Assembly (NCBI RefSeq): GCF_014217625.1
Contig: NZ_CP043641.1
Location: 496,001 to 560,000, forward strand
DNA: 64,000 nt
Origin: Leifsonia shinshuensis
GTDB taxonomy: Bacteria; Actinomycetota; Actinomycetes; Actinomycetales; Microbacteriaceae
Reading direction: 5' to 3'
Numbering within the stretch: position 1 is the first letter of the stretch; the number at the start of each line of letters is the position of its first letter. The position numbers were made by a program, and so were the translations under genes. Below the pieces are notes generated by a model, which was not told the DNA's origin, did no database searches, and was given only the letters and a program-made list of their open reading frames with translations. Shown piece by piece: positions 19,348 to 22,692 of the stretch.

Positions 19348-19665
19348 ATGGACATTCGATCGACGGGGCGGCGCACGGCCGTCGGGATCACCACCGCGAT
19401 CGGCATCTCGAGCCTCGCGGTGACGGGGATCCTCTCGGGCTTCCTGTTCGCGGGCACCTCGACCGCGAGCACGACCGGGACCACAGGGACGTCGGGCACG
19501 AGCAGCAGCTCGGGCTCCGGGTCGTCCAGCGACTCCGGGTCGTCCAGCGACTCCGGCTCGTCCAGCAGCTCGGGCTCGTCCAGCAGCGGCAGCAGCTCCG
19601 ACTCCGGCAGCGGCATCCAGCAGAGCCAGGGCGGTGGTGTCAGTGGCCAGTCCAGCGGCTCCTGA
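19348..19665 (+). CDS. Small membrane-anchored Ser/Gly-rich protein
   Basis: 105 residues. Residues about 11-36 form one hydrophobic segment after a basic start (TGRRT), so the protein is anchored or secreted with the rest outside. The remaining 65 residues are Ser, Gly, Asp and Thr in irregular short repeats (SSSDSG-type). No FMN-binding domain or SGAT/DGAT flavinylation motif is present. A GGAGG at 19336-19340 precedes the ATG. The 3' end overlaps the ApbE gene by about 32 bases, so it belongs to the redox operon. Low complexity makes family assignment impossible. Confidence 0.65.
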   Translation: MDIRSTGRRTAVGITTAIGISSLAVTGILSGFLFAGTSTASTTGTTGTSGTSSSSGSGSSSDSGSSSDSGSSSSSGSSSSGSSSDSGSGIQQSQGGGVSGQSSGS

Positions 19666-20593
19666 CCTCGTCCACGACGACTTCGCCATCTGGGGCGTCG
19701 ACGCTCGCCTCGTGGTGTCCGACGCCGGCGCCCTGACGCAGGCGCGGAGGATCGCGGACGCCGCCCTCGCCGCCGTCACCGCGGCCACCAGCCGGTTCGA
19801 GCCGGGCAGCGAGCTCTCCCGGCTCAACGCGGGGGAGCGTCCGGCAGGCGGGGTGGAGCTCAGCCCGCTGCTGGCCGAGTTCGTCGCTGTCGCGCTCGCC
19901 GCGGCCGCGGACACCGCAGGCGACGTCGACCCGACGCTCGGCGGCGACCTGGACCGCCTCGGCTACGACCGGGACTTCGCCGCGCTGCCCCTGGACGGCG
20001 TCACCATCACCGTCACGCGGCCGCGCCGGCCCGGGTGGCAGCGCGTGTCGCTCGACGGCCGCACCCTGACTCTGCCCGACGACCTCCGGCTCGACCTCGG
20101 CGCGACCGCGAAGGCGCACGCCGCCGACCGGATCGCCCGGCGCATCGCGGCAGAGACCGGTGCGGACGCCCTGGTCTCCCTGGGTGGCGACATCGCCACG
20201 GCGGGGACGACCGGCCGGCTCTGGGAGGTGCTCGTGCAGGACCTCCCGGGCGACCCCGCCCAGCAGATCGCGATCCCGAACGGCGCGGGCGTCGCCACGT
20301 CGAGCACGCAGAAGCGGCGCTGGCGCAGCGACGGCCAGGCCAGGCACCACATCCTCGACCCGCGCTTCGGGCTGCCGGCCGACGATGTCTGGCGGTCGGT
20401 CACCGTTGCGGCGGGCACCTGCGCCCGCGCCAACGCGCTGAGCACGGCGTCGATCGTGCGCGGGCTGGCGGCGCCCGGCTGGCTGCGCGGCCTCGGCGCG
20501 GACGCGCGGCTGGTGGCGAGGGACGGCTCGATCGTCACGACCGGGCGCTGGCCGGCCGACCTCCCGAGCGGGACGGGGCGAGCCGATGGATGA
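19634..20593 (+). CDS. apbE: FAD:protein FMN transferase (ApbE family)
   Basis: 319 residues. ApbE attaches FMN to threonine or serine of target proteins using FAD. Conserved blocks are visible: SRFEPGSELSRLN, LDLGATAKAHAADRI, LVSLGGDIATAG and HHILDPRFGLP. No signal peptide or lipobox is seen, so modification would occur in the cytoplasm or before export. Three GTG codons (19634, 19637, 19643) could start it; none has a strong ribosome binding site, which is consistent with coupling to the overlapping upstream gene. It ends 8 bases inside the next gene. Its target is not obvious in the operon. Confidence 0.88.
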   Translation: MVSVASPAAPDLVHDDFAIWGVDARLVVSDAGALTQARRIADAALAAVTAATSRFEPGSELSRLNAGERPAGGVELSPLLAEFVAVALAAAADTAGDVDPTLGGDLDRLGYDRDFAALPLDGVTITVTRPRRPGWQRVSLDGRTLTLPDDLRLDLGATAKAHAADRIARRIAAETGADALVSLGGDIATAGTTGRLWEVLVQDLPGDPAQQIAIPNGAGVATSSTQKRRWRSDGQARHHILDPRFGLPADDVWRSVTVAAGTCARANALSTASIVRGLAAPGWLRGLGADARLVARDGSIVTTGRWPADLPSGTGRADG

Positions 20594-21164
20594 GGTGCTG
20601 TGGGCCGTCGGCCGGGCCTCCGGCGTCGTCGCCCTCCTGCTGCTCACCGTGTCGCTCTGGCTCGGCATCGTGACCCGCTCGGGCCGTCCGCTGCCCGGGA
20701 TGCCGCGCTTCTCGGTCACCCTCCTGCACCGCAACGTCTCGCTGCTCGCGGTCGTCTTCCTGGTCCTGCACATCGGGACGCTGCTGCTCGACTCCTACGC
20801 GAAGCTCACCCTCACCGACATCCTCGTCCCGTTCCTCGGCGCGCACCTTCCGTTCTGGCTCGGCCTCGGCACGGTCGCCGTCGACCTCCTGATCGCGGTG
20901 ACGATCACCGCGCTGCTGCGCCGGCGGCTCGGCTTGCGCGTCTTCAAGGCGGTGCACTGGCTGAGCTACGCGCTGTGGCCGATCGCCCTCGCCCACACCA
21001 TCGGCGACGGCACGGACGGCACGTCCGGCTGGATGCTGCTGCTCTCCGGCGCGAGCGTGCTGTTCGTGCTCGCGGCCGTGCTCTGGCGGGTGTCCGCCGG
21101 GTTCCTGGAGACGTCGGCCGCGCGACGCACGGACGCCGAGCCGAGCAGAAGGGGACTGTCATGA
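20586..21164 (+). CDS. Ferric-reductase-like heme membrane protein
   Basis: 192 residues with about five or six hydrophobic segments. Four histidines, His48, His62, His124 and His137, are spaced 14 and 13 apart on two helices, the bis-heme ligand pattern of ferric-reductase-like / NOX-type transmembrane domains. It should carry electrons across the membrane through two b hemes. There is no FAD/NADPH domain on this chain; the next gene, overlapping by 4 bases (ATGA), encodes a separate NuoF-like flavoprotein that could supply electrons. Confidence 0.85.
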   Translation: MDEVLWAVGRASGVVALLLLTVSLWLGIVTRSGRPLPGMPRFSVTLLHRNVSLLAVVFLVLHIGTLLLDSYAKLTLTDILVPFLGAHLPFWLGLGTVAVDLLIAVTITALLRRRLGLRVFKAVHWLSYALWPIALAHTIGDGTDGTSGWMLLLSGASVLFVLAAVLWRVSAGFLETSAARRTDAEPSRRGLS

Positions 21165-22360
21165 CCATGACCGCCGACAACGTCCTGCCGGTCTCCGATC
21201 CCGCCGGCGCCCCGCCGCGGCTGCTGGCGGCCGGGCGTTCGGCCGACGCGCTCGCGCACCTCTCGGCGTTCGGACCGCGCCGCGGCCTCCGCCGCGCCGA
21301 CCTCGAACGCGAGCTGGAGCGGTCGGGCCTCACCGGCCGCGGCGGCGCAGCGTTCTCCGCGTTCCGGAAGCTCGCCGCGACGACCGGGCGACGAGCGCCG
21401 GTCATCATCGGCAACGGCTCGGAGGGGGAGCCGTGGAGCTGGAAGGACGCGGTGCTGCTCGCGAACGCGCCGCACCTCGTCCTCGACGGCCTCCTGACCG
21501 CGTCAGAGGCCCTGGGTGCGGCGCGAACCGTCCTGTATGTCCACGAAACGGTTCTCGTCCCGGTCGCGGCCGCCGTCGCCGAGCGCTCGGACGCCGGCCG
21601 CGTCGAGCTGGTCGAGGCGGCGGACGGATTCGTCGCGGGGGAGGCGAGCGCCGTGGTCAACGTCCTCCAGACCGGCCGCGCGCTGCCGCTCGACCGGGTG
21701 CGCCGGTTGTCGGAGTCCGGGCTCGACGGGAGGCCGACCCTGCTGCACAACGTGGAGACGCTGGCGCAGCTCGCGCTGGTCGACCGCTACGGCGGCGACT
21801 GGTTCCGCAGCGTCGGCGACCCGGCGCAGCCCGGGACCCGCCTCGTCACGGTGACCGGCGACGTCGCCGCGGAGGGCGTGCTCGAGGTGCCGACCGACCT
21901 GTCCGTGGCCGACATCGTCGCGCAGGCCGGCGGGGAGGCCAGGCTCGCCGCGGGCGTGCTGCTCGGCGGGTACCACGGGCGCTGGATCGCGCCGACCGAG
22001 ACCGGCGTGGCGCCGGGGGAGTCCGCGGGCGCGGGAGTGGTCCACGTGCTCGGCTCCCAGCGCTGCGGGCTGGCGACGACGGCGGCGATCGTCCAGGAGC
22101 TGGCGGCGGCGTCCGCCCGGCAGTGCGGGCCGTGCCTGTTCGGGCTGTCCGCGATGGCGGACCGGTTCGCCGAGCTGGCCGCCGGCCGGCTCGCTCCGCA
22201 GGCGGCGGCCGAGCTCGCCCGGCTCGCGGAGGCGGTCGACGGGCGCGGCTCCTGCCACCATCCCGACGGCGCCGCGCGGCTGGTCCGCAGCGCCCTGCGG
22301 GTGTTCGGGCGCGATGTCCACGCGCACGCCGAGGGCCGCTGCCTCCGGAGCGCACGATGA
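21161..22360 (+). CDS. NuoF-like FMN/Fe-S oxidoreductase
   Basis: 399 residues. The FMN/NADH-binding module of NuoF is recognised by GNGSEGEP (residues 84-91) and the NVETLAQLALV segment, followed by an SLBB-like domain and a C-terminal Fe-S domain. The Fe-S cysteines are reduced: Cys322 and Cys325 (QCGPC) and Cys365, with Ala in place of the first cysteine of the C-x2-C-x2-C-x40-C motif of complex I. A 3Fe-4S or otherwise altered cluster is likely. Probable role: accept electrons from NAD(P)H and pass them to the ferredoxin or the heme protein encoded alongside. Confidence 0.82.
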   Translation: MTMTADNVLPVSDPAGAPPRLLAAGRSADALAHLSAFGPRRGLRRADLERELERSGLTGRGGAAFSAFRKLAATTGRRAPVIIGNGSEGEPWSWKDAVLLANAPHLVLDGLLTASEALGAARTVLYVHETVLVPVAAAVAERSDAGRVELVEAADGFVAGEASAVVNVLQTGRALPLDRVRRLSESGLDGRPTLLHNVETLAQLALVDRYGGDWFRSVGDPAQPGTRLVTVTGDVAAEGVLEVPTDLSVADIVAQAGGEARLAAGVLLGGYHGRWIAPTETGVAPGESAGAGVVHVLGSQRCGLATTAAIVQELAAASARQCGPCLFGLSAMADRFAELAAGRLAPQAAAELARLAEAVDGRGSCHHPDGAARLVRSALRVFGRDVHAHAEGRCLRSAR

Positions 22361-22590
22361 CCGCCCGGCACGCCCTCCACGTCGACTGGACCCGGTGCGA
22401 CGGCCGCGGGCTGTGCGCCGAGCTGCTGGAAGGCACGATCGCGCGGGACGAGTGGGGCTACCCGTTCGCCGTCGGCCAGCCGGCCTCCGCCCGCTCCGAC
22501 ATCCCGGTGCGCAGCGACCAGCTCGACGCCGCCGAGGACGCCGTCGCGCTCTGCCCGGTGTTGGCCCTTCGGCTGCGCCGGATGGGCTGA
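22357..22590 (+). CDS. Three-cysteine ferredoxin
   Basis: 77 residues, starting in ATGA overlap with the preceding gene. Cys14-x5-Cys20 and Cys66 followed by Pro give the three-cysteine pattern of 3Fe-4S ferredoxins that serve P450s and other single-electron partners. Too short for the two-cluster type. It is the last gene of the 19.3-22.6 kb operon. No cytochrome P450 gene lies in the window, so the partner is most likely the NuoF-like protein or the heme membrane protein. The tRNA-Leu gene begins 19 bases later on the other strand. Confidence 0.85.
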   Translation: MTARHALHVDWTRCDGRGLCAELLEGTIARDEWGYPFAVGQPASARSDIPVRSDQLDAAEDAVALCPVLALRLRRMG

Positions 22591-22609
22591 GCCGGGCAGG
22601 ATTCGGTTG

Positions 22610-22692
22610 TGCCGCTGGTGGGACTCGAACCCACACGCCCTTCCGGACAAAGCATTTTGAGTGCTCCGCGTCTGCCATTCCGCCACAGCGGC
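22610..22692 (-). tRNA. tRNA-Leu (anticodon CAA)
   Basis: 83 nt. The acceptor stem GCCGCTG / CAGCGGC is perfect; the T-arm has GTGGG-TTCGAGT-CCCAC; a long variable arm, as in class II tRNAs, is present. The anticodon loop CTCAAAA (22661 to 22655 on the minus strand) gives CAA at 22659-22657, reading UUG. The 3' CCA is not encoded. A possible -10 TATTGT lies 16 bases upstream, between the tRNA and the divergent response regulator. Confidence 0.96.

Follow-up and report, generated by a model that had tools for sequence, protein, structure and literature searches.

We propose that SerP, a Ser-rich, membrane-anchored protein encoded directly in front of an ApbE-family gene in Leifsonia shinshuensis, may be a flavin carrier that is flavinylated at or near its C-terminal Ser and serves in a transmembrane electron-transfer module driven by reduced nicotinamide adenine dinucleotide (NADH), a reading that we regard as evenly poised between right and wrong. 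The SerP gene opens a compact operon within the 64,000-nucleotide stretch of DNA that was analyzed (the window; C1:496001-560000 of a 4.6 Mb genome, 100% complete in three contigs), and is followed by genes for ApbE1, a member of the flavin adenine dinucleotide (FAD):protein flavin mononucleotide (FMN) transferase family; FRD, a Ferric_reduct/MsrQ-like membrane protein; a NuoF-like protein; and a small ferredoxin. For the flavinylation and its acceptor residue, the heme content, the order of electron transfer and a modification before or during export, we infer the following mechanism. The NuoF-like protein and the ferredoxin would deliver electrons from NADH to two b-type hemes of FRD, which would hand them to a carrier outside the membrane, SerP. 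ApbE1 would load FMN onto the SerP tag [S/T]-x-G-S-COOH before or during export of SerP, the most likely acceptor being either the last Ser or the [S/T] that precedes it by three positions. SerP would be a swinging arm for the flavin, with a disordered Ser/Thr linker and no folded flavin-binding domain. The first-pass annotation of this sequence had raised modification of the Ser-rich protein at a non-standard site as one of two possibilities, and this one gains support from the conserved C-terminal tail described below, which makes SerP a candidate for flavinylation.

The C-terminal tail of SerP

SerP ends in ...GVSGQSSGS-COOH, its last seven residues being SGQSSGS, and matched no Pfam or NCBIfam family. 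Third-codon-position changes were the commonest over its first 40 codons in all four comparisons. SerP-type genes were collected by a filter that made no use of the tail, namely an open reading frame (ORF) ending just upstream of ApbE1, with a hydrophobic stretch and a low-complexity end. Loci were the best-scoring 30 matches each of the family-level, class-level and L131-family searches; the class-level search repeats the window itself (L026), which was counted once among 65 loci, and some loci come from the same genome (L119/L109, L137/L131, L150/L129, L151/L128, L115/L107, L132/L114, L117/L111 and L116/L102). A SerP-type ORF lay upstream of ApbE1 in 58 of the 65 loci, window included, and the nearest filtered ORF ended in [S/T]-x-G-S in 58 of 58. 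The seven misses were two contig ends (L093, L095) and L102, L106, L107, L111 and L114; the genomes of L102 and L111 carry a SerP before FRD at a separate locus (L116 and L117, respectively).

Among 78 unique C-termini, 77 ended in [S/T]-x-[G/A]-S; the count is not 78 because the single non-matching C-terminus (L110, 1166) was retained. The last residue was Ser in all 78, preceded by Gly in 74, Ala in three and Val in one (the Val case not being a SerP), with Ser/Thr at position -3 in 77. Position -6 was occupied by His or Gln in 45 of the C-termini, and [H/Q]-A-x-[S/T]-x-G-S was the most frequent form when the tails were aligned at their ends. This set omits 20 of 99 filtered ORFs, 19 found near FRD only (read as ApbE or a neighbor) and one of L005, and none of these 20 carries the tail. 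As background, an [S/T]-x-[G/A]-S end was found in 5 of 131 ORFs that passed the same filter elsewhere in the loci, and two of these five (L010, L011) resemble extra SerPs.

The tail could in principle arise artefactually from the high Ser and Gly content of the linker, or from the overlap with the start of apbE that is seen in the window. This explanation is scarcely credible: of 4134 internal linker 4-mers, 165 matched [S/T]-x-[G/A]-S, against 77 of 78 C-termini, and the tail persisted even where as much as about 192 bp separates SerP from the estimated start of apbE. It was also retained in L005, L085, L116 and L117, where SerP stands before FRD and no apbE intervenes, so that gene overlap is not its cause. 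The SerP and apbE reading frames differ in the window and in L006-L011.

The tail recurred in other samples. In a further family, that of L131, it was found in 26 of 30 loci (three from genomes already sampled), with Ala at -1 in two loci besides L131's own genome. Three named plasmid records, out of 273 that matched the NuoF-like protein, were examined and all carried it; one lists SerP as a "hypothetical protein" (WP_058037339.1), and the other two leave it without annotation. In loci found with FRD as the query, the tail stood before apbE in 14 of 20 and before FRD in 2 more, and was absent from L115, L122, L123 and L132.

Several loci hold additional genes of this kind. L048 has tandem SerP genes (854-1111 and 1182-1499) with the tails HASSTGS and HVTSNGS, and L041 has an additional upstream ORF ending in HSKSGGS. 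In L010 (2486-2983, minus strand), and similarly in L011, a divergent anchored Ala/Pro/Thr-rich ORF near a response regulator ends in VVSHGS and is possibly an extra SerP. An apparent SerP-ApbE fusion (P0045) was discarded; its N-terminal extension of about 100 residues reads, by eye, as another frame of the low-complexity gene and not as SerP.

SerP has a mean net charge of +2.8 before its helix and -0.95 after it, and 61 of 64 sequences are more positive before the helix. The tail is therefore predicted to lie probably outside the membrane (N-in, C-out).

ApbE1 and its potential targets

ApbE1 matched the Pfam family ApbE (PF02424, E 4.8e-48) and belongs to a coherent actinobacterial subfamily of 80 non-redundant sequences, its nearest named relatives among the matches listed being those of Microbacterium sp. 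X-17 and Leifsonia species (88-89% identity). Its AlphaFold2 model has a mean predicted local distance difference test (pLDDT) score of 90.3, and ranks 1-39 of a Foldseek search with this model were all solved ApbE/Ftp/FmnB chains (E 9.9e-20 to 8.5e-16; TM-score, normalized to query length, 0.69-0.78). The PF02424 match and the predicted fold thus place ApbE1 in the ApbE fold family. Ser223 and His239 are invariant in the 80 sequences and Arg228 is kept in 79, and these residues and position 267 are spaced like Ser257, Arg262, His273 and Asp301 of Listeria FmnB, as numbered in the excerpted text of PMC8906456.

The first-pass annotation saw no standard flavinylation target in the operon, and a genome-wide search agreed: the FMN_bind domain (PF04205, E up to 1) matched once in the whole genome, at C1:3885780-3885998, outside the window and in another operon. 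FMN_bind was the only known substrate searched for in this way; DUF2271, DUF3570, NqrB and flavodoxin-type substrates were not searched. The FMN_bind protein carries SGATYT near its C-terminus and has its own ApbE2 adjacent to it, together with an FNR-type cytochrome (L005, near 3.886 Mb). About 5 kb away lies a second SerP-FRD-NuoF-ferredoxin set without apbE (L005 14233-16684; C1 near 3.891 Mb), in which FRD, the NuoF-like protein and ferredoxin are 67%, 55% and 68% identical to those of the window. The products of the genes in front of this set look, by eye, like an FAD-dependent disulfide/persulfide reductase whose end is rhodanese-like, and a CsoR-like regulator.

The canonical SGATYT protein and the proximity of the second set would suit a reading in which ApbE1 serves that distant FMN_bind protein, which the operon would borrow as its electron acceptor, SerP having no role beyond that of an anchor or spacer. 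We consider this quite unlikely, given that the FMN_bind protein has its own ApbE2, that borrowing leaves the SerP tail unexplained, and that FMN_bind was undetected (E 0.1) in 34 of 94 genomes matching the window ApbE, 25 of which yielded a single ApbE. The 94 genomes comprise 32 picked from a family-level search and 62 from a class-level search at E 1e-30, and FMN_bind was undetected in 4 and 30 of them, respectively; in a fifth family-level genome (G052) the sole match fell under the family cut-off, and a match over the cut-off was found in 29 of the 62 class-level genomes. The single-ApbE genomes number 2 of the 4 (G053, G070) and 23 of the 30; for five of the 25 (G206, G209, G243, G265, G441) the match score was the sole basis of the count, and the G206 match is partial. 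Several of the 25 are rated 100% complete in 1-3 contigs (G422, G497, G201, G552); assemblies can miss genes. In the 20 single-ApbE, FMN_bind-free genomes with a locus read, the SerP tail was present in 18, G484 reaching a contig end and G423 having none. Because FMN_bind is often undetected, ApbE1 cannot, as a rule, rely on an FMN_bind protein as its target, and a target elsewhere in the genome, the other possibility in the first-pass annotation, is disfavored as a general answer.

ApbE1 might also flavinylate a loop of FRD, the NuoF-like protein, the ferredoxin or an unrecognized protein at a non-canonical site. ApbE1 looks cytosolic, as do the NuoF-like protein and the ferredoxin, and cytosolic ApbEs with a cytosolic target exist according to passages of PMC12052999; by eye, however, an [S/T]GA[S/T] site is absent from the FRD, NuoF-like protein and ferredoxin of the window, and nothing comparable to the conserved SerP tag occurs in any of the three. 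With the genome-wide search for known substrates having covered FMN_bind only, we consider this alternative very unlikely.

Several observations weigh against flavinylation of SerP by ApbE1. Residue 267 (window 20432-20434) is Asn instead of the catalytic, Mg-binding Asp in 79 of 79 non-redundant sequences, with one gap, so that ApbE1 lacks the Asp conserved in active transferases (Vibrio Asp285, FmnB Asp301). In FmnB, this Asp holds both Mg ions, and mutation of Mg-contacting residues, the Asp included, to alanine strongly cut or abolished activity, as stated in portions of PMC8906456. The tail is predicted to lie outside, whereas the N-terminus of ApbE1 is not strongly hydrophobic in any of 44 proteins (maximum 15-residue hydropathy 1.66, mean 0.99), and the second SerP of the same genome has no adjacent apbE. 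No SerP was found near ApbE1 in L102, L106, L107, L111, L114, L122, L123, L132, L143, L149, L152 and L163. Finally, the flavinylation motif D-x-x-[S/T]-G-A-[S/T], in which the last residue is the FMN acceptor and seven residues are enough (published in PMC12052999, in the text available), was matched by 1 of the 78 unique tails, and position -2, Gly in the canonical motif, varies in SerP; the acceptor could therefore also be the Ser/Thr at -3, and the register in which we align the tail to the motif is suggestive only.

The one matching tail, in L131, ends in D-S-N-T-G-A-S, the exact motif with the acceptor last, in a genome without an FMN_bind match. It is possibly due to chance, as we estimate from column frequencies about one such match per 30 sets of equal size. 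As a family trait it was rejected; it stayed a single case in its family, and G922 of the same genus ends in STNAS.

With regard to location, ApbE2 of the canonical FMN_bind pair likewise lacks a strongly hydrophobic N-terminus. Since ApbE1 appears to be cytosolic, modification before or during export has to be assumed, and this holds for the ApbE2 pair too. With regard to the active site, Asn267 is invariant in a 44-sequence ApbE1 alignment and was found by motif match in 29 of 30 loci of the further family (L158 was not caught by the pattern), and Asp occupies the equivalent position in four PDB alignments and in ApbE2 of the same genome. Because Asn267 is so strictly kept, its conservation argues for altered function rather than decay, the transferase activity of ApbE1 being putative, and Asn267 is a subfamily mark that may require separate enzymology. 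Asp186 is kept in 80 of 80 sequences, and that it might compensate for Asn267 is speculation.

The invariant Asn also leaves room for a non-transferase role, in which ApbE1 binds or hydrolyzes FAD and provides the NuoF-like protein with FMN, while the tail stays unmodified and serves as a docking peptide, whether for FRD or for some other partner. Consistent with this, the tail is retained next to FRD at loci without an adjacent apbE, and the Treponema Ftp protein is described as an FAD pyrophosphatase in part of PMC4767422. Ser223, Arg228 and His239 are nevertheless kept with the FmnB spacing, and in L100 (genome G411) SerP and ApbE1 occur together in a genome without an FRD match at E 1e-10. 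We hold this alternative to be fairly unlikely. As for flavinylation of SerP in its wider form, namely that a widespread orphan actinobacterial ApbE class with Asn for the catalytic Asp flavinylates the natural C-terminal tag, at its last Ser or at the Ser/Thr at -3, of a membrane-tethered, disordered protein that has no flavin-binding domain and acts as an arm between hemes and exterior, we put it forward tentatively, at a little under even chances.

The redox core and organization of the operon

The family assignments of the first-pass annotation agree with Pfam throughout the operon. FRD matched Ferric_reduct (PF01794, E 2.8e-9), and the two pairs of heme-ligand His residues noted earlier (His48/62 and His124/137) are kept without exception in the 71 non-redundant FRD sequences, the arrangement of a PF01794-type bis-heme cytochrome b; heme binding is predicted on this ground. 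The AlphaFold2 model of FRD has five long helices (mean pLDDT 82.6). The NuoF-like protein resembles the complex I 51 kDa subunit, with matches to Complex1_51K (PF01512, E 2.7e-26), NADH_4Fe-4S (PF10589, 3e-14) and SLBB (7.7e-6, under the curated cut-off), an FMN/NADH region and Fe-S Cys residues (C302 kept in 56 of 57 sequences; C322, C325 and C365 in 57 of 57). Its top sequence match among solved chains was HydB (E 5.8e-32), with NuoF-type chains next. The ferredoxin matched Fer4_15 (E 7.9e-12) and shows the pattern C14-x5-C20 ... C66-Pro (C14 and C20 kept in 36 of 36 sequences, C66 in 35 of 35); no solved relative was found by sequence at E 0.001. The NAD(P)H-to-heme electron route of the first-pass annotation agrees with these families and conserved ligands, by which electrons would pass from NADH through FMN/Fe-S and ferredoxin to two hemes across the membrane; the agreement concerns the components, and the route itself is still drawn from knowledge of the families.

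When 199 genomes of the family were searched, an FRD match was accompanied by an ApbE1 match in 29 of 29 genomes. In Micromonospora and Streptomyces (L012, L014, L024), the FRD-NuoF-ferredoxin set occurs without an ApbE match, and no SerP was seen at these loci. At L012 and L024, proteins that were named by eye as a thioredoxin-like lipoprotein and a CcdA-like membrane protein are encoded instead, which suggests a different outer acceptor there.

The five ORFs were found to overlap as previously described: 19348-22590, all on the plus strand, with overlaps of 32, 8, 4 and 4 bp in order (Table 1). On the 5' side are an FBP_C-domain gene and a divergent thioredoxin gene. The order ApbE, FRD, NuoF, ferredoxin, with a SerP-type ORF in front, is kept in other genera, a comparison that the first-pass annotation had proposed as a check, and the grouping is therefore not due to chance. 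A promoter and terminator scan found no signal. The possibility that the genes serve a P450 system found no support in the neighbors examined, no search aimed at P450s having been made.

Table 1. Features of the operon in window coordinates
Feature	Position	Strand	Basis or remark
SerP, 105 aa	19348-19665	+	ORF; N-terminal membrane helix, Ser/Gly/Thr low-complexity linker; candidate flavinylation substrate
Terminal Gly-Ser codons of SerP (end of tail motif)	19657-19662	+	Sequence, tail statistics
ApbE1, FAD:protein FMN transferase family, GTG start	19634-20593	+	ORF, Pfam, alignments, model
FRD, Ferric_reduct/MsrQ-like membrane protein	20586-21164	+	ORF, Pfam, four invariant His
NuoF-like protein with 51K, SLBB and 4Fe-4S regions	21161-22360	+	ORF, Pfam, conserved Cys
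Small ferredoxin	22357-22590	+	ORF, Pfam, three conserved Cys
tRNA-Leu(CAA), downstream operon boundary	22609-22692	-	Directly 3' of operon

As to physiological use, the neighbors suggest iron or metal reduction as a weak leading guess. A VIT family gene lies close to the operon on a Rhodococcus plasmid, and metal-transport and ArsR-type genes lie close to it on a Cnuibacter plasmid; MsrQ-like systems have been linked to iron assimilation in passages of PMC8238504. A histidine kinase adjoins the operon in L107 (by eye) and in the plasmid loci L167, L168 and L169 (annotated, with a response regulator), and expression of the operon may accordingly be under signal control.

Comparison with known flavinylation systems

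Even after DUF2271 and DUF3570 were added to the known substrates, 4% of the dataset genomes (670) still had an ApbE without a recognized substrate, according to portions of Meheust et al. (2021; PMC8238504). SerP offers one class of these orphan ApbEs a specific candidate substrate. A substrate of this type would escape filters that demand a known domain, having no Pfam family and being unannotated in two of the three plasmid records. If SerP is flavinylated as proposed, the definition of an ApbE substrate would have to take in peptides at the C-terminus of a disordered tether, a C-terminal flavin tag of natural origin would become available, and the question would arise of how ApbE works with Asn at the metal site. 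The SerP and ApbE1 of L100 offer a minimal pair.

A keyword search of open-licence papers found nothing on a Ser-rich, C-terminally flavinylated protein, and PMC11334425, in the portion available, names other ApbE substrates and does not mention NuoF or Actinobacteria. The electron-transfer module is already published in kind, and the substitute substrate is new within the papers searched. Meheust et al. described the gene clusters that come nearest, 31 MsrQ-like flavinylation clusters with a NuoF-like protein, proposed NAD(P)H as the donor and found MsrQ-like clusters to be broad in Actinobacteria (excerpts of PMC8238504). The operon resembles these clusters, as far as they are described there, in that a PF01794 cytochrome, apbE and a NuoF-like PF10589 protein are clustered together, and differs in having no FMN_bind gene and, in the place of the substrate, a tail-tagged SerP. 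Their filter, as given in the same excerpts, required a signal peptide or lipidation site in the ApbE, FMN_bind, DUF3570 or DUF2271 gene, and would probably drop the window cluster because ApbE1, judged by hydropathy, appears to have no N-terminus like a signal peptide.

Within the same genome, the canonical operon of L005 likewise combines a heme cytochrome, an ApbE without a hydrophobic N-terminus and an N-anchored extracytosolic protein with a low-complexity linker; it differs in its folded FMN_bind domain with SGATYT, in an NAD/FAD module fused to the cytochrome and in an ApbE2 that keeps the Asp. ApbE1 itself shares the predicted fold of the ApbEs of Listeria (FmnB), Vibrio and E. coli and the Ser/Arg/His spacing of FmnB, and departs from the solved enzymes in having Asn where FmnB has Asp301 and Vibrio Asp285. 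The artificial flavin-tag reportedly performs best at a protein terminus (passages of PMC12052999), and the SerP tail is similarly a short terminal motif. In contrast to the motif published in those passages, the form seen most often in SerP is [H/Q]-A-x-[S/T]-x-G-S, ending in a free C-terminus.

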